Source: Rhodothermales bacterium
GTDB taxonomy: Bacteria; Bacteroidota; Rhodothermia; Rhodothermales; Bin80
DNA: 64,000 bases
Assembly (NCBI GenBank): GCA_951812585.1
Contig: OX638318.1
Span: forward strand, 2,912,380-2,976,379
Reading direction: 5' to 3'
Of this stretch, positions 28,166 to 45,544 are shown piece after piece. Within the stretch, counting starts at the first letter, position 1, and each line of letters starts with the position of its first letter. The position numbers and the translations under genes are program-made. The notes below the pieces were generated by a model. It made no database searches and was not told the origin of the DNA. It saw only the letters and a list, made by a program, of their open reading frames with translations.

Positions 28166-28400
28166 ACCGTTCGCGCGCGCCGTAACTGTTCGCGCCAGCC
28201 TGTGGTGTTCCCTACGCGTTGTGTGGTGCCTCCTACACGGAAGCCCCGCTCCTCGTGCACGGCAAACCCTTCGCCCGCCAAGATCCTGGCGGCAGATCGC
28301 AGGTAGCAGTGCCCTGAGCGCAGCAGACGTCGGCACAGCTTCCGCCACATTGGGCGCCGCAGCGCACCGCGTGTATGCCACAGCACAGCGGCAAGTGCCG

Positions 28401-29303
28401 CTAGAAGCTGTCTACGGCGCGATAGGCATCGATCAGTCGCTGCTCTCCTTCCTTGCCCGGGTGCATGTTGCCATGCTCCATGCCCAAGATGCCGGTGAAA
28501 CCCTTGCTGTGAATGTGCTTGAAGATATTCAGATAGTTGATCTCCCCCGTGGTAGGCTCTTTGCGCCCTGGATTGTCCCCAATCTGAAAGTAGCCTATCT
28601 CATCCCAGGCCCGATCAATATTCGGGATGAGGTTGCCTTCGGTGATCTGCTGGTGGTACAGGTCGTCCAGAATCTTGCACGCGGGGCTGCCCACCGCCTG
28701 GCAGATTTCGTAACCTTGGGCCATCTTGGTAAGGAACAGGCCCGGGTGATTCCACGGGTTGAGCGGCTCCAGCACCATCACTAGCCCATGAGGCTCCAGA
28801 ATGGCGCTCGCCTGCTTGAGGGTTTCCACAACGTACGCGGTCTGGTACCCCATATCGAGCCGCAAGTCCACATGACCGGGTACAACCGTCATCCAGGTGG
28901 CATTGACCCGTTTGGCGACTTCAACAGACTCTGTGATGTCGGACAGGAACTGGGCCCGCTTGTCGGCGTTGCCGCTGGCAAGGTTGGGTTCTCTCCAGGC
29001 AATGCTGTGCGCTACAAAGACACCCATTTTCATGCCGCGGCGCTCCATGGCCGCCGCGATGGCATTCTGCGTTTCAATGCTGCGGCCTTTCATGCCGTTG
29101 TCTTCCCAGGCGGTAAACCCCTGGTCCGACGCAAACAGTATCTGGTCCACCAAGTCGTCGCCCGCATGGTGCTTGAACATCCCGAAGTGCGGCGCATAGT
29201 GCAGCTTGAAGGTGTCGGCCCCGCGCCCTATCGGGGCGGCACGGCCACAGCCCAGCGCCGCTGCTCCGGCGGCCATGGTGGTTACGAAGTCCCTACGTTT
29301 CAT
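28401..29303 (-). CDS. Tat-exported hydroxypyruvate isomerase-like TIM-barrel protein
   Basis: 300 residues. MKRRDFVTTMAAGAAALGCG is a Tat/lipoprotein signal. The barrel carries WMTVVPGHVDLR, VMVLEPLNPWNH, KILDDLYHQQITEGNLI, YFQIGDNPGRKEPTTGEINY and LGMEHGN. The order of Glu, Asp and His residues matches the Hyi group of the xylose isomerase superfamily. It is the last gene of a four-gene minus-strand run with another Hyi-like protein, an isomerase and an exported dehydrogenase. Family name does not prove hydroxypyruvate as substrate. Confidence 0.88.
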   Translation of the reverse strand: MKRRDFVTTMAAGAAALGCGRAAPIGRGADTFKLHYAPHFGMFKHHAGDDLVDQILFASDQGFTAWEDNGMKGRSIETQNAIAAAMERRGMKMGVFVAHSIAWREPNLASGNADKRAQFLSDITESVEVAKRVNATWMTVVPGHVDLRLDMGYQTAYVVETLKQASAILEPHGLVMVLEPLNPWNHPGLFLTKMAQGYEICQAVGSPACKILDDLYHQQITEGNLIPNIDRAWDEIGYFQIGDNPGRKEPTTGEINYLNIFKHIHSKGFTGILGMEHGNMHPGKEGEQRLIDAYRAVDSF

Positions 29304-29310
29304 AGTTCAG

Positions 29311-30162
29311 CTAAACATCGCAGATGTGTATGGCATCGCGCAGGGACACCAGCGGCGTACGGCTGGGAACGAATTCCTGCCCGACATAGCCCGTGTATCC
29401 GGTTTCAACGATGGCCCGCATGATGGCTGTATAATTGAGCTCCTGCGAGTCGTCGATCTCGTTGCGGCCTGGGTTGCCGCCCGTATGGTAGTGGCCGATG
29501 TACTGGTGGTTGTCGCGAATGGTGCGGATGACATCACCCTCCATGATCTGCATGTGGTAGATGTCATAGAGGAGTTTGAAGTGCTCTGAGCCTAGCCGCT
29601 CGGCCAGCTCCACCCCCCACGCCGTGCGGTCACACATGTAGTCCCGGTGGTCCACTTTGCTGTTGAGCAGCTCCATGCACAGCGTGACGCCGGCGCTTTC
29701 CGCGTCAGCAAGCAGCGGTGCGATGCCTTCCTGGCAGTTTCGGAGACCCTCCTCGTCGCTCATGCCCCGCCGGTTGCCGGAAAAGCAGATTACACGGTCG
29801 AACCCCGCATCGGCCACCTCCCGGATGCGCTTCTTGAACAGGGGAATCAGCCATTCGTGATTTGCGGGATCGTTGAAGCCTTCCGTGATGCGGCGCTTGC
29901 CTTGCATGACCGGCCCGAAAGGCATGGCGCAGGTCAGTCCGTACTTCTGTATGATCGGCCATTCCTCCGGCGTCAGCAGCTCGACAGAGCCTATGCCAAT
30001 CTGCACCGCGGCCTGCGCCAGCTGCTCCACGGAAAGATCTCCATAGCACCACCGGCAAACGGAATGATTGATGTTGCCCTTAAGCGCAGGCTTGGCTGCC
30101 GGCAGCAGGCTCGCCGCGGCCGCACCTACGAAACCGGTCTTGACAAATTCACGTCGTTGCAT
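29311..30162 (-). CDS. Tat-exported hydroxypyruvate isomerase-like TIM-barrel protein
   Basis: 283 residues with a Tat signal (MQRREFVKTGFVGAAAASLLP). NHSVCRWCYGDLSVEQLAQ, VTLCMELLNSKVDH, LYDIYHMQIMEGDVI, HYHTGGNPGRNEIDDSQELN and VGQEFVPS are characteristic of hydroxypyruvate isomerase-like proteins. The downstream paralogue starts 7 bases after its stop, and the two have the same metal-binding layout but differ in much of their sequence. Exported homologues in Bacteroidota occur in keto-sugar loci. Reaction unknown. Confidence 0.9.
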   Translation of the reverse strand: MQRREFVKTGFVGAAAASLLPAAKPALKGNINHSVCRWCYGDLSVEQLAQAAVQIGIGSVELLTPEEWPIIQKYGLTCAMPFGPVMQGKRRITEGFNDPANHEWLIPLFKKRIREVADAGFDRVICFSGNRRGMSDEEGLRNCQEGIAPLLADAESAGVTLCMELLNSKVDHRDYMCDRTAWGVELAERLGSEHFKLLYDIYHMQIMEGDVIRTIRDNHQYIGHYHTGGNPGRNEIDDSQELNYTAIMRAIVETGYTGYVGQEFVPSRTPLVSLRDAIHICDV

Positions 30163-30172
30163 TGGCCCGAGT

Positions 30173-31057
30173 CTAGGTTGGCAAGATGTTGTCCATGCGA
30201 CGGGCGATCTCCGCTAGGCGCGTACGATCTCCACCTGGAATCTCGGCGGTGGCCCAGCCTTCGTAGCCGATCTCTGCAAGCGCAGCGGTAACTGCGGGCC
30301 AGTCGCAATCCCCCTCGCCTAGCGGAACGCGAAACCCTGCATACGGTCCTTCCTGGTCGCGCTTGCCGCGGCTGTACTCCTTGATGTCCAGCTTCAAAAT
30401 GCGGTGCCCCAGCGTGCGGATCCAGTGCTCCGGCCAGCCATAGTTCACCACATTGCCCACATCAAAGTACCAGCCGACATGGTCGCTTTCGAAGTCGTCA
30501 ACGTATTGCGCGCATTCGAGCGGGCTCAGCAGAAACATGTTCCACACGTTCTCGAAGGCGATCTTCACGCCTAGCTCCACAGCCATGGGCAGCGCCTTGC
30601 GAATTTCGGCCTGCGAGCGTCTGTAGGCGTCAGCATACGACACCTCTTTGTTGACTACAGCCGGCACGAGGAGTACCGTGGACGCCCCGTAGGCATGCGC
30701 GTCCTTCAGGGCCGTCATGAGCCCGGCCAACCCTTCCGCGCGCACCGCTGCATCCGGATGCGAGAGCGTCTTCTGCCAGTGCACCGAGTCGACCACACCG
30801 TGTATGGGAAGCTCTGTGGCATCCCGCGCAGCGAGGACCTCGTCACGGTCCAAGTCGCTCGGGCTATCCATCTCGACACCATCAAAGCCCAGCGACTGGA
30901 GCAGCTGGAACTTCTCCAAGATCGACAGCTCTTCGCGCACCATGCCAAACTTCACGGCCTTCCTGATGGTGCCGTGGCGCGCCTGCCACAGGCTTTTTCC
31001 TACGGCCAGCCCGGTCGCGCCAAAGGCGAAGCCTCTCATGAACACACGCCGATTCAT
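30173..31057 (-). CDS. Tat-exported TIM-barrel sugar isomerase/epimerase-like protein
   Basis: 294 residues from ATG 31057, whose first four bases overlap the upstream stop (ATGA). The N-terminus MNRRVFMRGFAFGATG is a Tat-type signal. The barrel contains FGMVREELSI, FDGVEMDSPSDLDRD, VKIAFENVWNMFLLSP, VGWYFDVGNVVNYG, ILKLDIKEYS and WATAEIPGGDR. The Glu/Asp/His/Glu positions fit metal-dependent sugar isomerases. It belongs to the four-gene operon here. Confidence 0.9.
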   Translation of the reverse strand: MNRRVFMRGFAFGATGLAVGKSLWQARHGTIRKAVKFGMVREELSILEKFQLLQSLGFDGVEMDSPSDLDRDEVLAARDATELPIHGVVDSVHWQKTLSHPDAAVRAEGLAGLMTALKDAHAYGASTVLLVPAVVNKEVSYADAYRRSQAEIRKALPMAVELGVKIAFENVWNMFLLSPLECAQYVDDFESDHVGWYFDVGNVVNYGWPEHWIRTLGHRILKLDIKEYSRGKRDQEGPYAGFRVPLGEGDCDWPAVTAALAEIGYEGWATAEIPGGDRTRLAEIARRMDNILPT

Positions 31058-32358
31058 GGCGAAGCCTCGGCCCAAGGTGCACGCGCCAGCGGCGTCTTGC
31101 CCGGAATGGCAACGGCGGGAAACGGCATCGAGCCGAAGGCGAAGCTGCGAGGCACCAGGTCCAGCCCCGAGTTCATCAGCGCCTCCCATGCGAGCTCCTG
31201 TCCCGTGTAAGCGCTTTCGCGGCCGAGCACCGCCGTAAGCGTGCTTTCGGCGATCTGCCGCGTCTCGTTGATCGGGGTATTGGACCGAATGGCTTCGATC
31301 AGATCTGTGTGCTCCTGCACATAAGCGTTAAGCCCTGGCTCCTTCATCTCGTAAAGCGTTTCGCCGCGATGAGACACCAGCTTGGAGTATCGGGGATGAA
31401 GCTCCGCGGTGCCCAGCGTGCCGACGATCCGGTTCGTCACGCGCCGTGTACCCTCGGCAATCTGCCGACATTTGGCCTCCACACGAACACCGCCGTCGTA
31501 CACGTACTCAACGCTGAAGTGATCGTAGATATGACCATACGACGGGTCCACGCGTTCGATCCGGCCGCCCATTGCGATGGCGGACTCGGGATGACCCTGC
31601 AGCACCCAGTTGATCACGTCAATGTTGTGGACAAACTGCTCCACGATGTGGTCTCCTGAAAGCCAGGTGAAGTAGTACCAGTTTCGGCATTGCCACTCCA
31701 TATCCGACATGCCGGGCTTTCTGGGTCTAAGCCAGATTGGACCAGTCATGTAGTATTCCTGGGCGGAAACGATGTCGCCGATCATGCCGCCATGAATGCG
31801 TGCAATCGCCTCCACGAAGCTGGGCTGGCGGCGATACAGCGTGCCCGCCACGACCGAAAGGCCCTTAGCGTCAGCCATCTTGCCGGCTTCCATGATGGCT
31901 TTAGCGCCGGCAACATCCACCGACACAGGCTTCTCCATAAACACATGCTTGCCCGCTTCCACCGCCGCGGCAAAGTGCTTGGGCCTGAATCCCGGCGGCG
32001 AGGCCAGAATCACCATGTCTACATCGCTCTCCATGACGCCTTTGTAGGCGTCAAAGCCGACGAACTGATGGTTGCCATCGACTTGAAATGCGTCGCCTAT
32101 TTCCTGCTTCAACCCTTCCTTAGAACGGTCCAGCCGATCTTCAAACAGGTCGGCCATCGCCACAATGCGCACATTGTCCGCGCCGCTGACCGCATCCCGT
32201 GCTGCACCCGTGCCGCGACCGCCACATCCGACCACGCCCACGCGCAGCGCATCGGATCCAGCGGCATAGGCGAAGTTTCCGGTGGCCATAAGCCCTGCAG
32301 TGGTTGCCGCGGAGACCTTCAGAAAGGCGCGGCGCGAAACGTCCATTGGTATTGCCAT
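31054..32358 (-). CDS. Tat-exported Gfo/Idh/MocA oxidoreductase
   Basis: 434 residues from ATG 32358. The Tat signal VSRRAFLKVSAATTAG precedes the Rossmann motif VGVVGCGGRGTGAA. ILASPPGFRPKHFAAAVEA, FMEKPVSVD (catalytic Lys), IWLRPRKPGMSDMEWQC and NIDVINWVLQGHPE are almost collinear with the gene at 17.7-19.1 kb. It is the first gene of a four-gene operon and would make the keto-sugar that the following isomerase-like proteins process. A candidate extended -10 promoter lies 29 bases upstream. Confidence 0.93.
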   Translation of the reverse strand: MAIPMDVSRRAFLKVSAATTAGLMATGNFAYAAGSDALRVGVVGCGGRGTGAARDAVSGADNVRIVAMADLFEDRLDRSKEGLKQEIGDAFQVDGNHQFVGFDAYKGVMESDVDMVILASPPGFRPKHFAAAVEAGKHVFMEKPVSVDVAGAKAIMEAGKMADAKGLSVVAGTLYRRQPSFVEAIARIHGGMIGDIVSAQEYYMTGPIWLRPRKPGMSDMEWQCRNWYYFTWLSGDHIVEQFVHNIDVINWVLQGHPESAIAMGGRIERVDPSYGHIYDHFSVEYVYDGGVRVEAKCRQIAEGTRRVTNRIVGTLGTAELHPRYSKLVSHRGETLYEMKEPGLNAYVQEHTDLIEAIRSNTPINETRQIAESTLTAVLGRESAYTGQELAWEALMNSGLDLVPRSFAFGSMPFPAVAIPGKTPLARAPWAEASP

Positions 32359-32386
32359 AGTCCAAGGAGTTTGTTGGAATGCATGC

Positions 32387-32395
32387 AATATAGCA
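32387..32395 (-). promoter_or_regulatory. Candidate extended -10 promoter of the exported-dehydrogenase operon
   Basis: On the minus strand TGCTATATT matches an extended -10 element and lies about 29 bases before the ATG of the first operon gene, giving a leader of about 20 bases. No good -35 box is present. Promoter motifs in this lineage may differ from the E. coli type, so this is a weak call. Confidence 0.3.
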
Positions 32396-33112
32396 GAATT
32401 GGGGCTCCCTTGTTTCGCCCTGCGTGGACGCGTGCATGGCACACCTTGGGCGGCATGGCATGGCCACTGCAACGCCGCCTTGGCATCCGCACCGCATGCC
32501 TTCCCACTATGGAGCCCATAAGTACGCCACTGCATAGTCCGAAGGGTGCGCGCGGTAGCCTGTAGGACTCGGGAAGCACTGTTCCCTCCGGCGACCCTTG
32601 GGGCAGGTAGCCAGCTGCAGCGCTTGCAGCCTATGGCCTGTGGCAGGATCACTGGAACCACATTCCTGGCGAATCGGGCGGGATTGCACCGGCCGCTTGA
32701 GGGCCCGTCGCTTTCGCGACAGCGCAGCGCGATAGTAGAGCGGACGTTTGCGCACCTGTTGAACACGGGCGGCTTGCGCCGCGTTCATGTACGCGGTCAG
32801 GTGGAGATATTGAACGGATGTTGACGCAGTCGGCCGCCTTCAACCTTGGACTGCTGATGCGCACACGCTGCTGCGTTGACAAGCCACGCAGCCTTCAGGG
32901 GAGATGGTCCGCCCAATGGGCACGGGCGGCGTAATAGATCCGCCCTTTCGCGTTTTTTGGCCGATATACGTACAAAATCGCGCTCCAGAGATTTATAGGG
33001 CCCTTTCTTGCTTCCAAGGTGCAAAATGTTAGAAATCGATGATCGATGCCTTCGCGCACCCGGGCGAATCAACATGCAGTGCCCGCCAAAGCGCCCCTTA
33101 ATCCACGAGCTG
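32396..33112. other. Long intergenic stretch, no gene recognised
   Basis: More than 700 bases between a minus-strand operon start and the stop of the amidase gene. Open frames here are short, overlap one another and show no family resemblance. The 32940-33070 part is AT-richer (CGTTTTTTGGCCGATATACG). I see no tRNA, terminator or clear repeat. It may hold a non-coding RNA or a decayed gene; nothing can be supported. Confidence 0.45.
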
Positions 33113-34726
33113 CTAGGGCACAATGACCATGGGATGTGCCGCCTGATAGATCGTCTCCGCAAAGCCCTCGAGGTGCAGCTGGAAGTAGTAAACGCCGGCA
33201 GAAAGGGTACTGGTATCCACAGTGACGGCATGCCAGGTGTCTTCTTCGCGGTATTCGTCCGTAAGCCTGAGCACTAGTCGGCCGGCTGCGTCGAACAAAT
33301 GCAGCGAAACAATGCCCGGCTGCTGCAGAAAATAGCGGATGGTGGCCTGCCCGGATGCCGGATTCGGAAAACTCTGCGCCAAGAGGTAATTCCGCTCTGC
33401 GCGTACATGCACCACTGCGCTGCTCAGCGTCTGTACACGGCTACGGCTGCCCCGGACGGTCAAAAGATACGTAACGGGCCCCGGCGACTGTACTGTTGCA
33501 TCGACCCACTCGCCATCACGCGCGCTGGCGCGCTCGAGAACTACCACCGTGCCTTCCCTATCCTCGCGCGTAATGGCGTAGGTTTCTATGCCGGCGTCGG
33601 CCAAAAATCGCCACTGCAGCGCAACAACGCCAATGGTGTCAACGGTGGCGGCAAGCGCCGCCCGGCCTAGGGGAGCGTTGCCCGTCACCAACAGATCCTC
33701 TATGAGAGTCCTGAATGACGCAAGAAGTGCATAGTTGTTGTCACCCGGGCAAGCGGTATCGCTGAAATCCCGATGACCCTTGAGCGCGTCCGGATTCATA
33801 CCGTAGCGCTCGGACAAGTAGGCGAAGGTGACGATGAGCGAATCCTTTGCTGCACTGGTCATCCGGTTTCTGCATGTGCTCCCTTCAGGAGGGTGATAGC
33901 ACCCCATAAGCGATACGCCGATGTTTCCGGTGTTGTGGCCGCCGACATGCGCGCCACGGACCAGCGGCGGTCCATCCTCAAAATTCACGCTGGCGTTCAG
34001 GTACGGACGCCCCTGGTAAAGACGCCCTTCCTGATCCATCAGATAGTGGTATCCGATGTCACTCCATCCGCGCCCATTCTGGTGAAAGTCCTGGATGCGC
34101 TTCACTTGCTCCAGGCCCTCCGTAAGAGTCACGGCTGCAAAGCCTGCCGTGTGGTGAAGCGTCATCTGCTCATAGTCAGGCTGATTCAACGGCACCGGTG
34201 TGCCCCTGAAGGGCTCCGCATTCCATTCGTCCCGGTCATGAAGCACGGGAGGATAGATGACAAATGCTCCGGATTGGGCATCTTGGGAATCCGGAGCAGG
34301 CGGTGGCGCTGATTCGTCGAGGAAGGTGCCGGCCTGCATGATCTGCACGGTGCTTCCCTTGTCTGTCTCAAACCGTAGCGCAAAGCGGCTGGCCGCGTGC
34401 ACCGCATCGCCACGGTAGGCCGCAAGAAAGGCCGCATCCGTAAACGAGCGAACGATGTACAAGGCCATCCATTCACTCCATGCACCCTGCGCTTCGAATC
34501 GTATCCAGCCGCGTAGCGAATCACCCGCAGCTATGCCTTGGAGCGCAACCCCCGTAAAGGCGGGAAGCACCGCGGTGCTCGTGTACTCGATTCGCTGGGC
34601 CAGACCATCGGCCTGGATTTGAGGTGCCGACAGTGGGATCGGCGTATCAATAACGTCGGCGACCAGCTGCCCGCTGGCAGCCCAGGCGAATCCCATCAGG
34701 GCGAGCGCAAGCACCGATCGCTTCAT
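33113..34726 (-). CDS. PGRP-type N-acetylmuramoyl-L-alanine amidase with T9SS C-terminal domain
   Basis: 537 residues. Signal peptide (SVLALALMGFAWAASGQ), then an N-terminal beta domain. The amidase_2/PGRP domain at about residues 190-340 shows TLHHTAGFAAVT, GWSDIGYHYLMD, GHNTGNIGVSLMGCY and KGHRDFSDTACPGDN; its two His and the Cys form the zinc site of active enzymes. The C-terminus (SFPNPASGQATIRYFL, then SLHLFDAAGRLVLRL) is a T9SS sorting domain. It would cleave peptidoglycan outside the cell, so a role against other bacteria or in wall turnover is inferred. It starts 3 bases after the PorV-like gene. Confidence 0.93.
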   Translation of the reverse strand: MKRSVLALALMGFAWAASGQLVADVIDTPIPLSAPQIQADGLAQRIEYTSTAVLPAFTGVALQGIAAGDSLRGWIRFEAQGAWSEWMALYIVRSFTDAAFLAAYRGDAVHAASRFALRFETDKGSTVQIMQAGTFLDESAPPPAPDSQDAQSGAFVIYPPVLHDRDEWNAEPFRGTPVPLNQPDYEQMTLHHTAGFAAVTLTEGLEQVKRIQDFHQNGRGWSDIGYHYLMDQEGRLYQGRPYLNASVNFEDGPPLVRGAHVGGHNTGNIGVSLMGCYHPPEGSTCRNRMTSAAKDSLIVTFAYLSERYGMNPDALKGHRDFSDTACPGDNNYALLASFRTLIEDLLVTGNAPLGRAALAATVDTIGVVALQWRFLADAGIETYAITREDREGTVVVLERASARDGEWVDATVQSPGPVTYLLTVRGSRSRVQTLSSAVVHVRAERNYLLAQSFPNPASGQATIRYFLQQPGIVSLHLFDAAGRLVLRLTDEYREEDTWHAVTVDTSTLSAGVYYFQLHLEGFAETIYQAAHPMVIVP

Positions 34727-34729
34727 GCA

Positions 34730-35779
34730 CTAGAAAGACAGGTTGACGGTGAACCAGTGCGTCTGGGTGAGCCGCCCGAAATCAGCAAAGGCGTAGTCAA
34801 AGCCGGCGCGCAATGATCGGTCAACCCGCAGCTGGAGGCTCGCGCCCGCGGTTAGTCCCTGCTCGCCATCCGGCTCAAAAAGATTGCGATAACCAACGCG
34901 GAATGAGATCAGCTCGCGAAATCCGTACTCCACGCCCGCATTGATGTACTCCGCGTTGTCGTTGGGGTGCGCCGCATCCGTGGCCAGCAGCAGGCGATGC
35001 GTGCCCGTATCGTAGGCATCCCAGGCCAGCCCTACCCGGAACACCAGCGGCAGCGCATGGGCGTCCATGCGATACTGGGCGTTGACGATCTCGGCCGTGC
35101 CGGTCGTAGTGGGATTTGGGTCCTCGCTGAACAGGATATCGCGGCCGTCCATGCGCATCTTCGGACCCAGATTGGACATACTGGCACCTAGCCGCAAGCC
35201 GTTGAACGGCGTGGTGAAGAGCGTCCCTACGTCAAAAGCAAAAGCCGAGGCCGTGCTGTGCCAGATGCGCTCTTGGATGTACTTCAAAGAACCACCGACG
35301 GAAAAGCGATCCGTAAGATTGCGCGCAAACGTTGTCTGGATCGCGAAGCTCTGCACCTTGAACTGTTCGCCGGTGCCTTCAGGCTCCGATTCGGTGCGCA
35401 CGGCCATGTTCCCCGAGTCCAGCAGCAGGATTGCCAGGCCGATGCTTCCGAGGCCGCGCACCTCCGTCCCGAATGCTGCCATGTTGTAGTCCACCTCGGC
35501 AAGGTACCGGGTCTTGTTGAGCTGCACGCCCGTGCCAAGGAGGCGGGCCAGCCCCGCCGGGTTCCAGTACAGGGAGGATAAATCACTGCTTTCTGCTACG
35601 TATGCGCCGCCTAGCGCGATCGCGCGCGCACCGACGCCAAGCTTCAGAAACTGCGCGGCCGTAGTCCCGACGCGGGTGATCGTGGCAGCGTCCGGCGTTG
35701 CAGGGTCTTCCTGGGCCATTGCTGACTGGTTCGTCAGCGTGGCAAGCAGCAACAGGCTATATGGAAGCCAGCGGATCAC
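34730..35779 (-). CDS. PorV/PorQ-family outer-membrane protein
   Basis: 349 residues with a signal peptide (YSLLLLATLTNQSAMAQ). The early block FLKLGVGARAIALGGAYVA followed by DLSSLYWNPAGLARL is diagnostic for the PorV/PorQ (UPF0164) barrel family. The rest is amphipathic beta strand ending in aromatic residues (FTVNLSF), as expected for a beta-barrel. PorV shuttles T9SS cargo to the attachment complex. Its ATG overlaps the stop of the upstream sorted protein (ATGA) and the amidase follows after 3 bases, so it probably serves these cargo proteins. Confidence 0.92.
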   Translation of the reverse strand: MIRWLPYSLLLLATLTNQSAMAQEDPATPDAATITRVGTTAAQFLKLGVGARAIALGGAYVAESSDLSSLYWNPAGLARLLGTGVQLNKTRYLAEVDYNMAAFGTEVRGLGSIGLAILLLDSGNMAVRTESEPEGTGEQFKVQSFAIQTTFARNLTDRFSVGGSLKYIQERIWHSTASAFAFDVGTLFTTPFNGLRLGASMSNLGPKMRMDGRDILFSEDPNPTTTGTAEIVNAQYRMDAHALPLVFRVGLAWDAYDTGTHRLLLATDAAHPNDNAEYINAGVEYGFRELISFRVGYRNLFEPDGEQGLTAGASLQLRVDRSLRAGFDYAFADFGRLTQTHWFTVNLSF

Positions 35780-38700
35780 TTGATCACCGCGAACTTACCG
35801 ATGAACGAACCCTCGGGGCTGTTTACATGGAAGAGGTAAAGCCCGTAAGCCAGATTCATGTTGTCCTTGGTGCGCATGTCCCAGAAAACCTTTCCGTCGT
35901 CCAGCGTACTGTTATGATGCAAGGTTTCCACCAGTTCGCCTGCCAGCGTATAGATGCGGATCGTGCACTGCTGCGGCACGCCCGCAAAGTACAGGCGACG
36001 TTCGCCCCGCCGCGTCCGGGAGATGGGGTTGCGCGGCTCAAACGAAGCGGTGGCAACATAAGGGTTGGGCACCACATAAATGCCGCTAAGTTCCTGCTGT
36101 GCCAGCGTAGCGTCCGTGCCTGCTGCACGCGTGCGAAAGCGGTAAACATCCTGGACCGAAAACGGCTTGGCCGTGATCAGGTAGAATTCGTCCCCCGCAC
36201 CGGGTGTTTCCCCGACATCGTCCAGGCGCACTTCCCACGAGGCGGTTAGCACGTCATCCAGCGTTTCCAGAAAGATGATCGGCTCGTCCACATCCCACTC
36301 GTTGTCGCGATCAAAGTCAGGGACAAACACCTGAATAGGCAAATTGGCCGCGGTCAGGTTGACGACTTCAAATGGAATCGGCAGATTGTTGCTGAAGCCG
36401 GTGCCGATGGGCGAATCAGCGAAGCGTATCTGGTAATCGGAGGGTTGTGGTATGCGTCCCGGGCCCGCCGTGGCCGTAAGGATGCTATACGGAATCTGCA
36501 CTGTGTTGGAATTCCAGCCGGTTTCCTCATCGTTGACATCCAGCGCCCTATCCTGCACAAATACATGCAAGCCCTCAAACACAATGTTGGCCTCCTCACT
36601 CGCCAGCAGCGTGCTCCGGTAAACAGGCGCGTACGCAAAAGAGACGGTAATCATGGTACCTGGAGATACGCCGGCAGCGGCTTGGATATTGATCGTGCCC
36701 AGTGCGTAGTTGATGGCGTAATCGATGTCCGGTTGCAGCGTCCTGCCATCCGCCGTGCTGAGCCGAAGCGATCCCGGTACGATATTGCGATAGGTGGTGG
36801 TCTGACTCTTGCCGGGTGCGGCGGATAGCGTGGCCGTAACCGGGCCCTCATTGATGACCGAATAGGTCATCTGATCGCCTTGCGGTTCAAAGATGATGCG
36901 GTACGGCTGATCATCCAGCACGGCGAGTTCATCCACGACCTGCACATGGATCCGGCCCGTCGCATGGCCGCTCTCGTGGATCAGGCCAGCCTCGCCATAG
37001 GGCGCAGGACCAACGTAGCCTGCGACGCGCGGCTTGGCGATAGCGGCCAACGTGTTGCGGTTGTAGATATATGTATCGGTCGTGGGGTCGTATGTGATTG
37101 TCTTGCTGGTTTCGCTCGGCGGTATGCCGTTTGTGAAGGCGTCGCCCGCATCACCTGCAAAGCCGTGGTCGTAGGCCACGAGCGCATAGTAGTAGGTCTG
37201 TCCGTTGATGACGTTGTTGGAGTCGACGAACGTATGGTAGAGTCCGGTATCGTCACCTAGGTCGTAGGCAATGCCGCGGCCGGGAAAGGGAATCTCCGAC
37301 GCACCCTTGATGCCGTTTCTCAGATCAAACTTGGCATCTACGCCTTGCGCAGTCGTGTGCGGCGTGAACAGGAAGCGGCTGCCATTGATGTCGGTGATGG
37401 TCTGTTGGTCCGCAAATTCGTGATCCGTGGAGCGATACAGAGCGTAGCCTTCGAAGTCGTTTTCGCGCGTAAGCGGATCAACAGATGCTTCGGCCAAGTC
37501 GTCCCAATAGAGTGTGATCTTTCGGTCTCCGGGTGCTGCGCGCAGCGTCGGCTTGCTGGGAGGTTTGGCGAACACATAGCCCACATCATAGATCTGCTGC
37601 GCCACCAGGGCATTCAGGCGCAGATCCTCACGGTTTTCGCCGAGGATGAGCGCGATAGAGAAGCGCTTCGTATCGCCCGCGCGCAGACGGAAGGATCCCG
37701 AGCCGTACACGAACACATAGTCGCCGGGCTCTTCCGGGACCTCCTCAAAGCGGCCCGGCGTGATCAGACTCCAGAGCCGTTCGTCGTTCGAAACTCTATT
37801 GCCGGCGAATGGGGGCGAGGCAAAGGAGGTGAGGCCGAACTGGTCGCTCTCATCGATGTCGGTAAACTCAAAGTTTGGCTCTCCAGGCTTGGTGATATCA
37901 AACTGCGACCCGGCCGTCGGAATGCCATCGCCTTCCCCTGTGTCACCGGTGCCGGGAATGCCGTCGACACCGATATCGTCGGTTTCGGGGTCCCAATCAC
38001 CATCGTTGTCTATACCATCGGTCCACGACTCGTCCACCAGGCCATCGTTGTCATTGTCGATGCCATCGTCATCCACGCCCGGGCTTTCCAGGAACTTGTA
38101 CCCAAAGTAGCCGGGCACGCGGCCCGCGATATCGGATCGGCCATCGTCGTCCCAGGCAAAGACCATGTTGAGGTCTTCATCGTAGTAGGCCAGGTCATCG
38201 GCCCAGTCACGCGGTCCGCCTACATGCGGATCTCCCCACATGCCGAAGATGACCTTGTCCAAGTCTCGCTCGCTCTTGTTGGTGATCTTGTAGATCAGGA
38301 AGATCACATCTTCGGCCAGCGGGTTGGCCCACTGGTACAGACGCACCTCGACCTCTAGGCCGAGGCCGCGCTTGGAACTGTCGGAAGGGAAGGGCCAATA
38401 GCTGAATTCACTATTGGTGTAGTCGTTCATAAAGTAGAGCGACTCCTTATCGGCATTGGAGGCTCCCTGTTGCAGCGCACCCGGCCAGACGTACCGCTCC
38501 AGCGTCTCGCTGTACCAGGCTTCCGGCCACGAATCGGGCTTTCCATCCAGGTTGTCGTCCGGCGCATCGTTCGTCGGGATCTTGTTGGAGTTCGGGTCGA
38601 CCACTTCGAGGCCCTCAAAGCTGCCCACCGGCTCGGCGCAGGGAACCGGCTGCCATCCCCAGTAGGTGGAGCCGTCCGGCGAGATTTCGCCGCCGTTGGA

Positions 38701-39174
38701 GACGAGCCCGTCAGAAACGATTCTCATCACGTAGACCTGTCTCCCTTGCGCATCGGTGACGGGACGACCCTCGTCGTCGTACAGCGGCACGCTCTGCGGG
38801 TCGCGCGGCCGGCCATCTTCCCGATAGGTGTCTACGACTTCTGCGGCCACCAGCGGACCGAACTCATAGCCGTAGCCCAGGCCGTTCCATACGATGTCGG
38901 TGATGGTATTGCCGGGCGCTGAGATCGACCCGAAGTTGAAGATCTGTGTAGTGATTCTATTGCCGTTCAGAATGGCGTCGCGCCGGGATGTGATGTCCAC
39001 GCCGCACTCAAGCTGCGAGAGCGGTATCATTGGGCCCCTGGCGAGTGCGTCCATCCACTGGCGTACTTCGAACGGAGACCAGTCCCGCTCACGCACCTGA
39101 GCCGAAGCTGCAATGGTGCAGAAGAGCAGTACGCTTGAGAGCAGTACGCTTGCCATGAATGCGCGGCGGACCAT
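35776..39174 (-). CDS. Large T9SS-sorted surface protein with calcium-type repeats
   Basis: 1132 residues with a signal peptide (ASVLLSSVLLFCTIAASAQ). Around residues 360-420 runs of alternating Asp/Asn/Gly (DDDGIDNDNDGLVDE, GIDNDGDWDPETDD) resemble thrombospondin type-3 calcium repeats. Fibronectin-III-like strands follow (PPSKPTLRAAPGDRKITLYW). The C-terminus (VPNPYVATASFEPRNP, then IRIYTLAGELVETL and GLYLFHVNSPEG) is a T9SS type A sorting domain. It lies between the TonB-dependent receptor (36 bases) and the PorV-like gene (4-base overlap). Adhesion or surface-layer function is inferred; no enzyme motif was found. Confidence 0.88.
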   Translation of the reverse strand: MVRRAFMASVLLSSVLLFCTIAASAQVRERDWSPFEVRQWMDALARGPMIPLSQLECGVDITSRRDAILNGNRITTQIFNFGSISAPGNTITDIVWNGLGYGYEFGPLVAAEVVDTYREDGRPRDPQSVPLYDDEGRPVTDAQGRQVYVMRIVSDGLVSNGGEISPDGSTYWGWQPVPCAEPVGSFEGLEVVDPNSNKIPTNDAPDDNLDGKPDSWPEAWYSETLERYVWPGALQQGASNADKESLYFMNDYTNSEFSYWPFPSDSSKRGLGLEVEVRLYQWANPLAEDVIFLIYKITNKSERDLDKVIFGMWGDPHVGGPRDWADDLAYYDEDLNMVFAWDDDGRSDIAGRVPGYFGYKFLESPGVDDDGIDNDNDGLVDESWTDGIDNDGDWDPETDDIGVDGIPGTGDTGEGDGIPTAGSQFDITKPGEPNFEFTDIDESDQFGLTSFASPPFAGNRVSNDERLWSLITPGRFEEVPEEPGDYVFVYGSGSFRLRAGDTKRFSIALILGENREDLRLNALVAQQIYDVGYVFAKPPSKPTLRAAPGDRKITLYWDDLAEASVDPLTRENDFEGYALYRSTDHEFADQQTITDINGSRFLFTPHTTAQGVDAKFDLRNGIKGASEIPFPGRGIAYDLGDDTGLYHTFVDSNNVINGQTYYYALVAYDHGFAGDAGDAFTNGIPPSETSKTITYDPTTDTYIYNRNTLAAIAKPRVAGYVGPAPYGEAGLIHESGHATGRIHVQVVDELAVLDDQPYRIIFEPQGDQMTYSVINEGPVTATLSAAPGKSQTTTYRNIVPGSLRLSTADGRTLQPDIDYAINYALGTINIQAAAGVSPGTMITVSFAYAPVYRSTLLASEEANIVFEGLHVFVQDRALDVNDEETGWNSNTVQIPYSILTATAGPGRIPQPSDYQIRFADSPIGTGFSNNLPIPFEVVNLTAANLPIQVFVPDFDRDNEWDVDEPIIFLETLDDVLTASWEVRLDDVGETPGAGDEFYLITAKPFSVQDVYRFRTRAAGTDATLAQQELSGIYVVPNPYVATASFEPRNPISRTRRGERRLYFAGVPQQCTIRIYTLAGELVETLHHNSTLDDGKVFWDMRTKDNMNLAYGLYLFHVNSPEGSFIGKFAVIK

Positions 39175-39210
39175 GGAATTTTGGGTTTGCGGGCCAGAAA
39201 GCGCTTGGGG

Positions 39211-42129
39211 CTAGAACGATAGGGTGGCGCCAACCTTCAAGTGCCTGGGGCTGGAGAACCAGTGCGGGCGCGTATCATACTCCTCCAGCGTATGAATGCC
39301 AGGCAGGTCGTAGTTGGATTTCCAGGTGGCGTGCAGGTTGCGCTGCTCCGACAGCGAATAGGTGGCCCGCCCCGTGTCATTGAAGACAAAGTTTTCGTTC
39401 ATACGGTCGAGGATATTGAATCCTTTTGCGAAGGCGCGCAGGCGTAACCCACGCACGGAAAACTGCTTGTACACATGCACATCCAGCTTCAATTTGGAGG
39501 GCTTGCGCCCGCTACGCGTAGGTAAATCCACGTTCTGGTCCAGGATCAGGGGAGAGTACGGATACCCGGTGGCGAATTGTCCGTTGAACGATATACTCCA
39601 GTTGCCCGGCCGGTTGATCGTTACTGTGGACGAGAGCACATGGCGCTGATCAAAGGTCAGCGGCACGACTTCAAGCTCGTTTTCGCGTCCCGACAGGCGG
39701 TTGAAGAAGAACCGGTTGGCATCATCGTCGCTGCCTTCGGCGATCTGGAAGGTATAATCCACCGTTGCCGACAGGAGCCCGGTGCGACTGCGCCGCTTGG
39801 TCAGTGCCACCGTTAGCCCTGTGACGTTCGCATAGGCCTTGTTCAGGTAGATGTTGTAGAGGTCCTCGCCCGCGATGGTCGAATACCGGATGAGCTGCAG
39901 CGCCATGTAATCGCGGATATCTTTGAAGTATCCGGTCAGATGGATGGCCAGGAAATTGCCGATCTGCTGCTGCAGCCCGATCTCGTACTGAATGGTGCGC
40001 TCCGGCCTCAGGTTAGTGTTGCCGAAGGTAGGCGCGCTACCCTTGGGAAACTCGAACTCAGGGTTGACATACAGGTTGCGCAGCGAGGGCATCTGCGCAA
40101 AGTGCCCGTAGGAGAAGTGGATGATGCCACGCTCGGTGATCGGAAACGACACCCCCAGGCGTGGTAGCACTAAGTTCTTCACCTCTGCGTCACCGAGTTC
40201 GCCATTGGGATCGAACAGGTCGGCCACATACTGTCCGTTGGGATCAAAGCGTTCAAAGCGCATGCCGGCGTTGATGATGAAGTCGTCGAACTCCAGCTTA
40301 TCCTGTGCAAACACGCTCATCTCCAAGACGCGCTGATCGTCGTATTTGTCGTGCGAAGGGTTTTCCACCGGAGCCACGGTGGGCTCGCGGTACTGATTGC
40401 CGTCATACAGGACCACGAAATTTTCCCGACTCAGGCTGTGGCTCTGGACTTCAAAACCAGCCTTGATTTCGTGCGTGATGCCGATCTGGTGCGTGTAATC
40501 GGCCTTGGCGCGCAGCGAGCCGGAGTCCTCGTAGATGTGCCCCTTCTGGTTGCCGCCGAAGAGGAAGTTGTTGCCTGGAAAGCCAATCACGTTGCCCCCA
40601 CCGATGCCGCCAATATCCTTGACATAACGAGGATCGAGCGGGTCTTCGTAGACATAGCTCTTGTACCGGCTGAGCGCCCAGGACAGCTTTACCGTGTAGA
40701 AGGCGCGTTCGCTCAGCGTATGCGTCCAGTGCAGGCTGTGATTCTGGTTGCGCCGCCGCGCTGTGGCTGTGCCGTCGGGGTTGAATCGGTAGCCGAAGCT
40801 GAAGCCTTTTCGACGGCTGTTGTCGACCAGGTAGGAATACTCCACCTGCATGCCCCGGCGGGGGCGCAGCGACACCTTGCTGAGCACATTTAGGCGGCGA
40901 CTGGGGCTCATCGGCACGCGATCATTCGGCACCTCCAAGCCTTCTCCTTCGACCACCGTGCCATCTGCCAGCGTGATCGTTGAGTCCATGTAGGCCCACC
41001 ACGGCCTGCCGTGGATCTCGTAGTACCAGTCGGGACCGTTGAAATTAGCCGAATCTGATGGCAGGTGCTGGCGGATGCCATAGAGATGGCCCTTGTCCTG
41101 GTCATATCGTCCCGACATCAAAAACCGCATCCTGCTGCCAAACGGCAGGGGGCCGCTAAGCGAACCTTCCAGCGTTCTCGAGTTCAGGTCTATGCCCGAA
41201 GGCAGGAAAAAGACCTCTTCGTTGGGCGTGACGAAGTCGCCGCCGTAGGCGCTGAAGGAGCCATCAAACTGGTCGCCGCCCTCTTTGGTCACCAGGTTCA
41301 CCACTGCGGACATCGCCTTGCCATACTCTGCGTTGAAGGCCCCGGAGATGACTGTCATCTCCTCGATGGCGTCGATCGCCACGCGCGTCGCAATGCCGTT
41401 GGTATTGAACGGGTTGCTGACAGCCAGGCCATCCACGAGGTACGATATTTCGTTGCTGCGTCCCCCGCGCACATGGAGCTCTCCGCTCGCACCCGTGGTT
41501 ACGCCGGCCTGTGTGGCAAGCACGCCAAAGAGGCTTTCAACCGGCAATGCATCAATTTCCTCGGCCACGACGGTCTTCTTTGATGCCGTCAGGTCCTTCT
41601 GCACCAGCGGACGTACGGCCTGCACGATGATTTCGTCTCCTTCAATGACCGTAGACCGGAGCTCCACATCTATGCGTGTGGTTTGCCCGGTGGATACACC
41701 GACATCCGTAAGCGTATGCCTCTGATAGCCTACGTAGCTGAAGACGAGCGCGTAGGAGCCGGGCCGCATATTCAGCAACACGTAGTTGCCGTCCAGACCC
41801 GTTGCCGTGCCCTGCGTGGTGCCGTCTACCAGGATGCTGACGCCGATCAGGCCTTCTCCTGTTTCCGCATCGGTGACCTTGCCCGCGATCTTGCCCTGGC
41901 CCCACGTGGGAATCGCCCACAAGAGCACCAGCGCTACCAGCCAATGGGCAATCCGTAAGCAGCGGCCCACAAAGACCGCACAAGGCCGCAGATTCGAATC
42001 CGGTGCGCGCGTCGAAGCAGACGGCAAGGTGCTGCGGCGCGACAAAGAAGCACTGCGAGACTGTTGGTGTTGGTACGCACCGCCTGCCCGGCCATGCAGC
42101 GGGCCATCGGATCTAAGCAAGGTGTGCAT
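39211..42129 (-). CDS. TonB-dependent receptor with carboxypeptidase-like domain
   Basis: About 972 residues from ATG 42129; a GTG at 41970 just before the signal peptide (HWLVALVLLWAIPTWGQ) is an alternative start, and TTG 42156 is also possible. After the signal comes a CarboxypepD_reg-like domain (KIAGKVTDAETGEGLIGVSI), then a plug domain (VLATQAGVTTGASGELHVRG, YLVDGLAVSNPF) and a barrel with LRPERTIQYEIGLQQQIG. It imports a large substrate across the outer membrane with TonB-ExbB-ExbD energy. No SusD lipoprotein partner is present, so this is not a classical Sus pair. It heads the four-gene T9SS operon. Confidence 0.92.
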   Translation of the reverse strand: MHTLLRSDGPLHGRAGGAYQHQQSRSASLSRRSTLPSASTRAPDSNLRPCAVFVGRCLRIAHWLVALVLLWAIPTWGQGKIAGKVTDAETGEGLIGVSILVDGTTQGTATGLDGNYVLLNMRPGSYALVFSYVGYQRHTLTDVGVSTGQTTRIDVELRSTVIEGDEIIVQAVRPLVQKDLTASKKTVVAEEIDALPVESLFGVLATQAGVTTGASGELHVRGGRSNEISYLVDGLAVSNPFNTNGIATRVAIDAIEEMTVISGAFNAEYGKAMSAVVNLVTKEGGDQFDGSFSAYGGDFVTPNEEVFFLPSGIDLNSRTLEGSLSGPLPFGSRMRFLMSGRYDQDKGHLYGIRQHLPSDSANFNGPDWYYEIHGRPWWAYMDSTITLADGTVVEGEGLEVPNDRVPMSPSRRLNVLSKVSLRPRRGMQVEYSYLVDNSRRKGFSFGYRFNPDGTATARRRNQNHSLHWTHTLSERAFYTVKLSWALSRYKSYVYEDPLDPRYVKDIGGIGGGNVIGFPGNNFLFGGNQKGHIYEDSGSLRAKADYTHQIGITHEIKAGFEVQSHSLSRENFVVLYDGNQYREPTVAPVENPSHDKYDDQRVLEMSVFAQDKLEFDDFIINAGMRFERFDPNGQYVADLFDPNGELGDAEVKNLVLPRLGVSFPITERGIIHFSYGHFAQMPSLRNLYVNPEFEFPKGSAPTFGNTNLRPERTIQYEIGLQQQIGNFLAIHLTGYFKDIRDYMALQLIRYSTIAGEDLYNIYLNKAYANVTGLTVALTKRRSRTGLLSATVDYTFQIAEGSDDDANRFFFNRLSGRENELEVVPLTFDQRHVLSSTVTINRPGNWSISFNGQFATGYPYSPLILDQNVDLPTRSGRKPSKLKLDVHVYKQFSVRGLRLRAFAKGFNILDRMNENFVFNDTGRATYSLSEQRNLHATWKSNYDLPGIHTLEEYDTRPHWFSSPRHLKVGATLSF

Positions 42130-42378
42130 CACTGTATCAGCTCTAGCCTTCGCCAATCAGGCAGCATCGACCAGCCCACGCCAAGATACGATGCTGAGTA
42201 CCCAATTGCCCGCAGGGCAACGGAGTGCTCATGCTTCCAGCGGTGCGATGTCTGTCCAGCGGTGCCGCCCGACGCAAGACTGACCACTCGTATAGCATTG
42301 AGGCGTGGCTGCGGTGGGTGCGCTGCGTCCAAGGATCGCGTTTCGCGCGTGTGAACGCTCCGTTCGAACAAGCAAGAA
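42130..42378. other. Intergenic region upstream of the TonB-dependent receptor
   Basis: This region must hold the promoter and leader of the receptor operon, given the terminator just beyond it. I looked on the minus strand for cobalamin- or other riboswitch motifs and saw none. No gene is recognisable. Confidence 0.4.
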
Positions 42379-42452: not shown

Positions 42453-44330
42453 TTACTTGATAAGCGTCATGGGCCGCGCCTGCTGGAAGTTGCCATAGCG
42501 CAGGACATAGAAGTACTGCCCGCTGGCAACGGGGATGCCGGCGTCACTCGTACCATTCCAAGTAGCGTGGTGCGTCCCCTTGGCATACGTTTCGTCCCTT
42601 ATCAGCGTTCGCACCAAGCGGCCCGTAAGGTCGTAGATCAGAATGCTGATCCGCTTGTCCAGAGGAAGCGTGAAAGAGAACGTCGTCGTCGGATTGAACG
42701 GGTTCGGGTAGTTCGGTCCCAGCACATAGTCCTGCGGCACAATGATGCGATCTTCAGTGAAGTTCGTAGGCAACCCTGCGCCGGAGAATATGCGCACAAA
42801 CGCGCGATTGTGATACGCCCTGGTGGAGTCTGCTATCACGGTACGCACGGTTGTGGAATCGTTCGGATAGGTCTCCTGGATCACGTACAAACTGTCCGGA
42901 ACAGCCTGCATGGAGAAGGCTAGTTCCGCGTGTCCATCCCCGTCGGCATCGCCCAAGAAGGCCATCTTGGCGGCAAATTCACTGCCAGCCAATTCATAGT
43001 ATGTGCCCACGCTGTCAATGATGGTGTTGAACGCGCCGCCATCACCCGGAAAGGAGATCGTGCGAACAGAGTAGTTGGCCGGGTCTTCTACATCCGTACC
43101 GGGCCAGAAGTCTGCAATGCGCAGCCATTGGGGCGGATCGCCATTGGTATATGCGCTTACGCCGTAGGAGGGGCCGCTGCCAATAAGCTCAATCCTGCCA
43201 TCGCCGTCAATGTCGCCTGCGGTCAGGCCGAGTGCAGAGAATCCGGGGAGTATGCCATAGACGACATTCGACGCGTCGATCTGCGTTGGATCTTCCCCGG
43301 ACTCGTAGTTGACGAGGGTAACATTGCCAGAGCCATAGACCGGGCAGAACACCTCGTCGTCGCCGTTGGCGTCCATGTCAACCGCCAGGCAGCCGAACAG
43401 TGGCGTTTCATCACTGTTCGACGCATGGATCCACGCCAGTGTATCCCCTTCTTCAGGCGCATCGTAGGTGTCCGGTCCGGTAACGTCTACATTGGTGAAG
43501 TTGAGGTAATCCCAGCTCGCCAGCGACAGCTCAGGCGTTCCGTCCCCATCAAAATCGGCGGGAATGATGGAGTATGCACTACCGCCGCCGCGGTTAACCG
43601 GATCGAAATCATCTGTCCGTGTGCTCCAGCGTGCTTCCTGATTCCAAGCTCCGAACAGCGGATCCACCGCCGACAGAGATAGGACATACCAGTTATCGAA
43701 GTGGTTGAAGCCACTGCCGCCGTTGTTGGGCAGCATTATCTCGTCGACACCATCGCTGTCTACATCGGCAACGGTGATCTGCTCGCTGACAAAACGATCA
43801 GGAAGTGTGTCCGGGAAGGTATACGCAATCGGCGGGAGTGAGAGCGGGACACTATTGTCGCCATCAGCCTCAGCGACATAGAGTCCAGGAGGTACGAACG
43901 CTGCAATGGGGTTGGTCGGACTATACCCGCGACCCATGAGCATGATGATCTCTCCCATTCCATCATCATCAAGGTCGGAGCAGGCTGCGAACCGGCCATT
44001 CTGACTGTTTGCCGTGGAATCAACGGAGTACGAGGCATATACGACCTCCCATGTATCAGCACCCGCCGCCTCGATCATGTATACCCTGCCCCCGCCAGAG
44101 TAGTCCGTGACGAGTATATCGGTTTTGCCATCTCCATCCACATCGCACGGGCCAGTGACGCCGCGTGCGCCAGATTGCAACCCGGGTGCATAGGGTGGGA
44201 AGGGATCGCCTACCAAGTCCGACAGCACAGAGTCCTGGTTCGGAATCCATTGGAAGTCGGTTGTCTGACCTGCTGCAACCGTGACAGTGAAGGCCACCGT
44301 GAGCAAAGCGGTAAAGTGTCTGTACGTCAT
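42453..44330 (-). CDS. FG-GAP/VCBS-repeat secreted protein with T9SS C-terminal domain
   Basis: 625 residues with a signal peptide (FTALLTVAFTVTVAAGQ). Repeats of the form DVDGDGKTDILVTDY, DLDDDGMGEIIMLMG, DVDSDGVDEIMLPN, DFDGDGTPELSLASW, DMDANGDDEVFCPV and DIDGDGRIELIG mark an FG-GAP beta-propeller with calcium-binding loops. The C-terminus (GPNYPNPFNPTTTFSF, then ILIYDLTGRLVRTL and GQYFYVLRYG) is a T9SS sorting domain. A terminator follows, so it is probably transcribed separately from the receptor operon. The propeller suggests surface binding rather than catalysis. Confidence 0.92.
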   Translation of the reverse strand: MTYRHFTALLTVAFTVTVAAGQTTDFQWIPNQDSVLSDLVGDPFPPYAPGLQSGARGVTGPCDVDGDGKTDILVTDYSGGGRVYMIEAAGADTWEVVYASYSVDSTANSQNGRFAACSDLDDDGMGEIIMLMGRGYSPTNPIAAFVPPGLYVAEADGDNSVPLSLPPIAYTFPDTLPDRFVSEQITVADVDSDGVDEIMLPNNGGSGFNHFDNWYVLSLSAVDPLFGAWNQEARWSTRTDDFDPVNRGGGSAYSIIPADFDGDGTPELSLASWDYLNFTNVDVTGPDTYDAPEEGDTLAWIHASNSDETPLFGCLAVDMDANGDDEVFCPVYGSGNVTLVNYESGEDPTQIDASNVVYGILPGFSALGLTAGDIDGDGRIELIGSGPSYGVSAYTNGDPPQWLRIADFWPGTDVEDPANYSVRTISFPGDGGAFNTIIDSVGTYYELAGSEFAAKMAFLGDADGDGHAELAFSMQAVPDSLYVIQETYPNDSTTVRTVIADSTRAYHNRAFVRIFSGAGLPTNFTEDRIIVPQDYVLGPNYPNPFNPTTTFSFTLPLDKRISILIYDLTGRLVRTLIRDETYAKGTHHATWNGTSDAGIPVASGQYFYVLRYGNFQQARPMTLIK

Positions 44331-44530
44331 GCTAATTTCTTTTGGGTGGAAACAGTATTAAGCGCGATTATAGGAATTCCTTGAACGTAATGCAAGTACA
44401 GGTACAGGGTTAGGACTGCTGGCGGTATGCCCTGCGGCGGCCTGGTCCGCCCACGGAGGGCGCCCCGCGTTAGCGATTTCGTACTCTGGTCAGTAGATTT
44501 TCGGCCTTGTCCCGTTCTGACTACATCGCC

Positions 44531-45544
44531 ATGGTGCAGACCACTGTAATCGGCAGCTATGCGTGGCCCTCCTGGTTCATCACCGCGGTTGAATCCATTC
44601 GCCGCGGCGAATACGGCCCCAAAGATGTGGAAGAAACGCTGGACGATGCCGTTGATCTGGCCATCCGCGATCAGGAGGAGGCCGGCCTTGATGTCATCAG
44701 CGACGGTGAGATGCGCCGCCTGGGCTTTTTTACCGCAGACTTCTACGGCCGGCTCAGTGGGCTCAGTGCGCTTCCGCCGCTGCGCAGACTCGGCCCAGGC
44801 GGGCACGACCAGCGCGAGCGCTATAAGGCCTTGGCGCGCTTCGAGGCACCCAAAGGACTGGGGGTTGTCGCAGAATACGTATATGCGCGTTCGCGGACCG
44901 TACGGCCGTTGAAGGTGCCTTGCCCAGGGCCGTATACGCTGGCGGGACGGATCATGCCAGGCAGACTGTACCCGGACAGGATGGCCGTGGCACACCACTT
45001 CGCCCAAATTATCAACAAGGAGCTCAAGGCCGTGGTGGCCGCCGGCGCATCTTTCATTCAGCTGGATGAGCCCTCATATGCCGTGCACAAGCATTCGCCC
45101 AGCGCGTTCGTGGCGCTTTTCAACAAAGCGATTGAAGGCGTAGATGCGCGTATAGGGCTGCACCTCTGCTTCGGCAACTACATCGGCCGTCCGGTGGCGC
45201 ACCGCGTTTATGCACCGCTATTTCCTGACATTCTGGATGTGCACGCAGACGAGATCCACCTGGAGATGGCCAACCGCGAAATGGCCGAAGTGCACTTGGC
45301 CGGTGAGATCGCCCGTGCCGGCAAGACTGTGGCGGCCGGTGTCATCGACGTCAAAAACTACTTTATTGAAACACCGGAGATTGTTGCAGATCGCATCAGA
45401 ACGGTTCTGGCGCATGTTGCACCCGAAAAACTGGCCGTGGCTCCGGACTGCGGCCTTAGTCAGACGGCGCGCTGGGCTGCGCGCGCCAAGCTGAAGGCGC
45501 TGGCAGCAGGCGCAAAGCTCGTGCTCGCGGAGCTGCGCGGGTAG
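44531..45544 (+). CDS. MetE C-terminal-domain-like methyltransferase
   Basis: 337 residues from ATG 44531, which sits directly before the first strand (VQTTVIGSYAWPSW); the longer TTG form adds only eight residues. The protein corresponds to the catalytic half of cobalamin-independent methionine synthase: LDVISDGEM, the zinc motif HLCFGNY, DEIHLEMANREM and PDCGLSQ, giving His, Cys and Cys ligands. Single-domain homologues may methylate homocysteine or another thiol with different methyl donors. It is transcribed away from the FG-GAP gene. No SAM or cobalamin riboswitch was recognised upstream. Confidence 0.85.
   Translation: MVQTTVIGSYAWPSWFITAVESIRRGEYGPKDVEETLDDAVDLAIRDQEEAGLDVISDGEMRRLGFFTADFYGRLSGLSALPPLRRLGPGGHDQRERYKALARFEAPKGLGVVAEYVYARSRTVRPLKVPCPGPYTLAGRIMPGRLYPDRMAVAHHFAQIINKELKAVVAAGASFIQLDEPSYAVHKHSPSAFVALFNKAIEGVDARIGLHLCFGNYIGRPVAHRVYAPLFPDILDVHADEIHLEMANREMAEVHLAGEIARAGKTVAAGVIDVKNYFIETPEIVADRIRTVLAHVAPEKLAVAPDCGLSQTARWAARAKLKALAAGAKLVLAELRG

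Follow-up and report, generated by a model that had tools for sequence, protein, structure and literature searches.

Five adjacent genes on the minus strand of a Rhodothermales genome (3.2 Mb, one contig) probably encode a SusCD-like system at the cell surface. It would be built with type IX secretion (T9SS) and would take hold of peptidoglycan fragments, trim them, and bring them into the cell. A preliminary description of the window (the whole stretch of 64,000 nt that was analyzed) had listed four of these genes, for a TonB-dependent receptor (TBDR), a large sorted protein (BIG), a PorV-like barrel (PORV), and an amidase (AMI), with gaps of 36, -4, and 3 bases, and had read them as a contact-dependent, perhaps predatory, wall-degrading and uptake apparatus. 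The ORFs and the Pfam/NCBIfam domains bore out the genes and their spacing. Coupling of wall degradation to uptake is also our best reading of an amidase that looks secreted and catalytically intact and whose gene is linked to those of a TonB receptor and a barrel of the PorV family. The attributes "contact-dependent" and "predatory" were not supported.

Organization of the Gene Cluster

AMI (33113-34726, minus strand like all genes of the cluster) codes for a PGRP-type N-acetylmuramoyl-L-alanine amidase of 537 aa, as assigned by Pfam/NCBIfam, AlphaFold2, Foldseek, and alignment. It is preceded by PORV (34730-35779), which codes for a PorV/PorQ-family outer-membrane barrel of 349 aa. The GTG start codon of PORV overlaps the TGA stop codon of BIG (35776-39174), the gene for a putative surface protein of 1132 aa from an uncharacterized family. 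The start of TBDR (39211-42156) is uncertain and may be at 42156 or at the ATG at 42129 chosen in the preliminary description; most alignments with homologs start at residue 52-73 (about 41.97 kb). A fifth gene, FGGAP (42453-44330), is located upstream of TBDR and was counted as part of the unit because relatives keep it together with TBDR, BIG, PORV, and AMI.

An ORF of 226 aa upstream of FGGAP (44327-45007) was rejected as an antisense artifact of a plus-strand Meth_synt_2 gene (44507-45544). This gene is divergent from FGGAP, and likewise in locus L060 of the same family. The GFO/IDH and AP_endonuc_2 genes downstream of AMI were not accepted as members either, since they do not regularly follow AMI in relatives. 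A group of GFO/IDH/MocA oxidoreductase and AP_endonuc_2 (xylose isomerase-like) genes at 26037-32766 is probably a cluster for sugar or polyol catabolism. A subtilase of 976 aa with a FlgD-type T9SS-like tail is encoded at 21192-24122 (minus strand); a similar subtilase gene is found just after AMI, in convergent orientation, in locus L052. On the other side of the cluster, a BadF-type amino-sugar kinase (48032-49099, minus strand; 80 bits to the NagK-like model NF046058, below the cut-off of 370) shows 30% identity to the kinase of the f60 triad operon described below. Methionine synthase-like and acetyl-CoA synthetase genes stand between this kinase gene and the five-gene cluster, and a gene for a penicillin amidase family protein (49101-50981, minus strand) adjoins it.

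The Amidase Has Intact Catalytic Residues and a Sorting Domain

The PGRP/Amidase_2 domain of AMI comprises residues 160-340 (33707-34249) and was found by Pfam (54.1 bits, cut-off 26), by homolog alignment, and by Foldseek. Residues H192, Y226, H318, T324, and C326 were invariant across 35 homologs. They align with the motifs HH, DIGY, and GHRD..TACPG of PGRP3, which hold the zinc ligands His, His, and Cys and the catalytic Tyr/Thr. The AlphaFold2 model (mean pLDDT 84) consists of an N-terminal beta-sandwich, the PGRP domain, an Ig-like domain, and the tail. By Foldseek, the PGRP domain grouped with animal PGRPs such as 4zxm and PGRP-LB (target TM-score up to 0.84). AMI resembles the PGRP-type amidases of animals (PGRP-LB, amphioxus PGRP3) in fold and in zinc and catalytic residues, but it is bacterial and carries a beta-sandwich, an Ig-like domain, and a T9SS tail in addition. 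We predict that AMI is catalytically intact and has MurNAc-L-Ala amidase activity.

Residues 453-537 of AMI (33116-33370) form a T9SS type A C-terminal sorting domain, which scored above the curated cut-offs of PF18962 (30.5 vs. 27 bits) and TIGR04183 (29.8 vs. 23 bits). FGGAP, an FG-GAP repeat protein (PF13517) of 625 aa, also has a type A tail (TIGR04183, 27.5 vs. 23 bits). For this type A cargo, a typical signal-like N-terminus (MKRSVLALALMGFAWAASGQ) was noted by eye as a putative Sec signal peptide. The amidase therefore looks secreted, as had been claimed before. The SprA translocon of the T9SS is encoded in the same genome (1707 bits, G000:C1:2269557-2277080).

BIG, PORV, and TBDR

BIG harbors no Pfam domain, and no curated sorting-domain model of Pfam/NCBIfam reached its cut-off. 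The C-terminus (residues 1027-1132) matched type A sorting domains in hhalign (96.5% over 61 columns), which is a profile-profile comparison only. The structural model of BIG was weak (mean pLDDT 63 overall). Whole-chain Foldseek matches had low TM-scores and were set aside, and only a partial match by VIA-align was used, with caution. In it, residues 55-537 resembled the supersandwich at the N-terminus of GH94/GH15/GH116-type enzymes, the catalytic barrel of these enzymes being absent (Z 14-18 over 213-272 residues with an rmsd of 3.2-4.5, in a low-confidence region of the model). This glycoside phosphorylase-like N-terminal half hints at carbohydrate binding. The BIG family is large; of 345 genomes sampled from the whole phylum, 115 had a member. 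In a tree of the family, the proteins of Rhodothermales and Neomarinimicrobiota (Fidelibacterota) formed one clade (SH-aLRT 99). Its sister was the f60/Ign-type clade of another class (SH-aLRT 96), and the other sampled paralogs fell outside.

PORV was clearly above the cut-off of the PorV/PorQ family model NF033709 (215.5 vs. 90 bits) and matched the PorV structure 6h3i (E 7e-12), but it stayed below the equivalog cut-offs for PorV (NF033710, 79.9 vs. 250 bits) and PorQ (99 vs. 220 bits). In F. johnsoniae, type A tails are served by PorV itself; sprF-like genes directly follow genes for type B cargo of the T9SS (PMC12618676). PORV resembles these SprF-like/PorV barrels in its family (PorV_fam, NF033709) and in its position directly after a gene for putative T9SS-tailed cargo (PMC12618676). 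The preliminary description had taken the barrel for the shuttle of the amidase. It may have this role, but it may also serve BIG instead of the amidase. In the T9SS literature that we searched, we found no description of a PorV-family barrel linked to type A cargo, and nothing that joined T9SS and TonB in Rhodothermales or in Marinimicrobia.

TBDR consists of Plug, TonB_dep_Rec, and an N-terminal CarboxypepD_reg domain (Pfam/NCBIfam). Neither the specificity of TBDR nor a role as importer can be read from its sequence. As in the SusCD loci of Bacteroidota, a TonB receptor with CarboxypepD_reg stands next to a gene for a putative surface partner and is linked to a surface hydrolase, here AMI with its T9SS tail directly downstream. 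Unlike in SusCD loci, TBDR scored below the cut-off of the SusC/RagA-type model TIGR04056 (96.7 vs. 368 bits), and the partner is BIG, with a T9SS-like tail and its own PorV-family barrel, instead of SusD. No SusD lipoprotein gene was found next to TBDR, and the only SusD_RagB match of the genome is located at 1.59 Mb.

Conservation and Co-Inheritance of the Cluster

Named genomes were scanned with the amidase alignment, which gave 65 loci. The complete order FGGAP-TBDR-BIG-PORV-AMI was present in 38 of them, 30 from Rhodothermales and 8 from Neomarinimicrobiota; three of the latter are bins with the same cluster type. A further 16 loci agreed with this order but were cut by contig ends (5 with four genes, where the contig starts inside the cluster, and 11 truncated). 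Five loci, all from Neomarinimicrobiota, were rearranged, with TBDR-BIG-PORV on the strand opposite to AMI and FGGAP still beside AMI. In L145, L148, L151, and L153, this form has the TBDR-BIG-PORV triad divergent from the FGGAP-AMI pair. The remaining six loci had AMI without the triad, several of them at contig ends. Divergent AMI homologs (37%-39% identity) without triad were seen in L093, L094, L139, and L142, the first two being two copies in one genome (G023). The median spacings across loci were 4, -1, and 15 bases, with start codons chosen mechanically. The gene order whose conservation the preliminary description had proposed as a check was found, with FGGAP added, in two phyla.

AMI was present in all 16 genomes of the GTDB family, and BIG, PORV, and AMI were adjacent in every one. 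In the 15 family genomes other than that of the window, longer stretches also contained TBDR, and FGGAP wherever the contig extended far enough; absence of the amidase from the locus in relatives, which would have spoken against the earlier proposal, was seen in none of the 15. Among 195 genomes of the class, BIG orthologs (E < 1e-100) occurred in 55 and AMI homologs (E < 1e-25) in 56. Both were present in 53 genomes and one alone in five, namely BIG in two (one fragmentary, one distant) and a divergent AMI in three; a genome without one of the two almost always lacked the other. Fisher's test on these counts gave p of about 2e-41, a value that is descriptive only since the genomes are related. 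The locus counts likewise overstate the number of independent events, because few lineages are involved. Conservation across two phyla places the arrangement far beyond chance. In many Rhodothermales, including Rhodothermus, and in Neomarinimicrobiota, the locus is a single-copy core locus.

Peptidoglycan Enzymes Next to Orthologous Triads

Orthologous triads of other lineages are linked to peptidoglycan enzymes. In f60, where three loci were read past PORV, the triad runs straight into genes for a BadF-family NagK-like kinase and for a fusion of GH3 and beta-lactamase. A gene for an SSF symporter follows in two of these loci, and the third stretch ends within the fusion gene. The fusion is NagZ-AmiE-like and has the architecture of RmNag3 from Rhodothermus marinus (PMC6987092). 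ABC sugar importers beside the f60 and f59 triads had been suspected from ORF lengths and were refuted by Pfam. In one f60 genome (L208:6497-17390), the BIG gene is duplicated, with one copy on each side of TBDR. In two genomes of another class, the gene directly after PORV codes for an M23 peptidase (G373) or an Amidase_2 protein (G242), both with a T9SS tail. Most other orthologous triads read in that class had no peptidoglycan enzyme next to PORV. Seven Neomarinimicrobiota loci carry genes for a NamZ exo-N-acetylmuramidase and a GH18 protein near AMI; these loci are related and may represent one event.

The genome of the window also contains paralogous triads of TBDR, a protein with C-terminal sorting domain, and PORV. 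Next to them are two sulfatase genes, a gene for a T9SS-tailed protein resembling heparinase II/III, and genes for FG-GAP proteins of the ASPIC/UnbV type. The triads at L068:1116-14109, L070:5710-15852, and L071:4258-14674 are possible T9SS-based polysaccharide utilization loci. What these loci have in common is that a TonB receptor and surface parts putatively exported by the T9SS are encoded close to glycan-degrading enzymes. No GH3 NagZ was found in this genome. It encodes a standalone protein of beta-lactamase fold with 40% identity to the AmiE-like half of the fusion, which lends weak support to muropeptide use.

Discussion

We propose that Sec takes AMI, FGGAP, and BIG through the inner membrane and that the T9SS then takes them through the outer one. 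AMI would then cleave the MurNAc-L-Ala bond in extracellular peptidoglycan or muropeptides. The freed glycan or peptide could be bound by BIG, perhaps together with FGGAP, at the mouth of TBDR, in the way SusD acts on SusC, while the PORV barrel would hold or deliver BIG (or AMI) at this site. TBDR would bring the fragment in on TonB energy, and the imported product could be a stem peptide, a denuded glycan, or a whole muropeptide. In other lineages, enzymes of the NagZ-AmiE type, NamZ, and amino-sugar kinases may then process the imported or denuded glycan. The target is most likely peptidoglycan, and what is new would be a glycan-utilization locus, in itself of a known kind, with T9SS parts. 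Nothing at the locus proves that the target wall is foreign.

The triad could instead import some other nutrient, such as a metal chelate, a peptide, a nucleotide, or another glycan, with the amidase only opening dead cells or being a passive T9SS cargo gene. Import of chelates is common among TonB receptors, the BIG family is widespread and has unrelated neighbors, and AMI is less conserved than either BIG or TBDR among the loci compared. We nevertheless regard this as unlikely, as the amidase stays beside the triad across two phyla and independent peptidoglycan enzymes adjoin orthologous triads.

It also seems improbable that the locus does no foraging and only maintains the wall of its own cell. 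The amidase would then work on peptidoglycan of that cell, at released turnover fragments or at holes made for envelope machines, and the triad would serve to recover or build its envelope. Conservation as a single-copy core locus would fit such a housekeeping role, and AMI is the sole Amidase_2 found in the genome. However, the T9SS tail would place the amidase beyond the outer membrane and away from the sacculus, and the variable paralogous triads adjoin polysaccharide-degrading enzymes. Moreover, a cell that reclaims shed fragments of its own wall would also be importing them, and the line between this and scavenging is a gradual one.

A weapon that lyses living neighbors on contact and takes up their contents, as the terms "contact-dependent" and "predatory" had implied, is very improbable. 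Its only support is the link between a receptor and a catalytic amidase that looks secreted. It is established that a MurNAc-L-Ala amidase has no access to the wall of Gram-negative cells that are intact. The locus has no gene for immunity, for a pore former, or for a device of contact or attack. We rejected predation and contact-dependent attack on the distribution of the locus, which belongs to the core of ordinary heterotrophs, Rhodothermus among them.

Scavenging of peptidoglycan fragments, the reading we prefer, can be compared to the NagZ-AmiE-NamZ muropeptide rescue of Bacillus subtilis and to RmNag3 (PMC6987092). NagZ-AmiE-like, NamZ, and amino-sugar kinase genes stand beside the triad or AMI in f60 and Neomarinimicrobiota, but the rescue pathway was described without such an outer-membrane uptake unit, and the genome of the window lacks GH3. 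Fidelibacter multiformis, the sole isolate reported for Fidelibacterota (Marine Group A/SAR406), lives on exogenous muropeptides, a reliance that its authors traced to ancestors of the phylum; no outer-membrane importer or route was named (PMC11652737). This is also the phylum of the cluster-bearing Neomarinimicrobiota loci. We tentatively raise the possibility that, in parallel to SusCD, glycan importers exist in a second design based on the T9SS, consisting of a TonB receptor, a T9SS-exported surface binder, and a dedicated PorV-family barrel, and that this copy is an ancient outer-membrane muropeptide importer of Rhodothermales and Fidelibacterota, the missing entry step for cell-wall feeding in the latter.

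The five-gene cluster is a concrete candidate for the outer-membrane route of muropeptides in Fidelibacterota and Rhodothermales, including Rhodothermus. If our reading is true, the cluster would allow peptidoglycan recycling to be traced in the ocean and the subsurface, would give a function to a widespread protein family without Pfam domain, and would reveal a SusCD-like importer assembled via type IX secretion. It would then appear to account for the way in which certain bacteria of marine and subsurface habitats live off the wall debris of others, with the fragments first being cut and then used as food.
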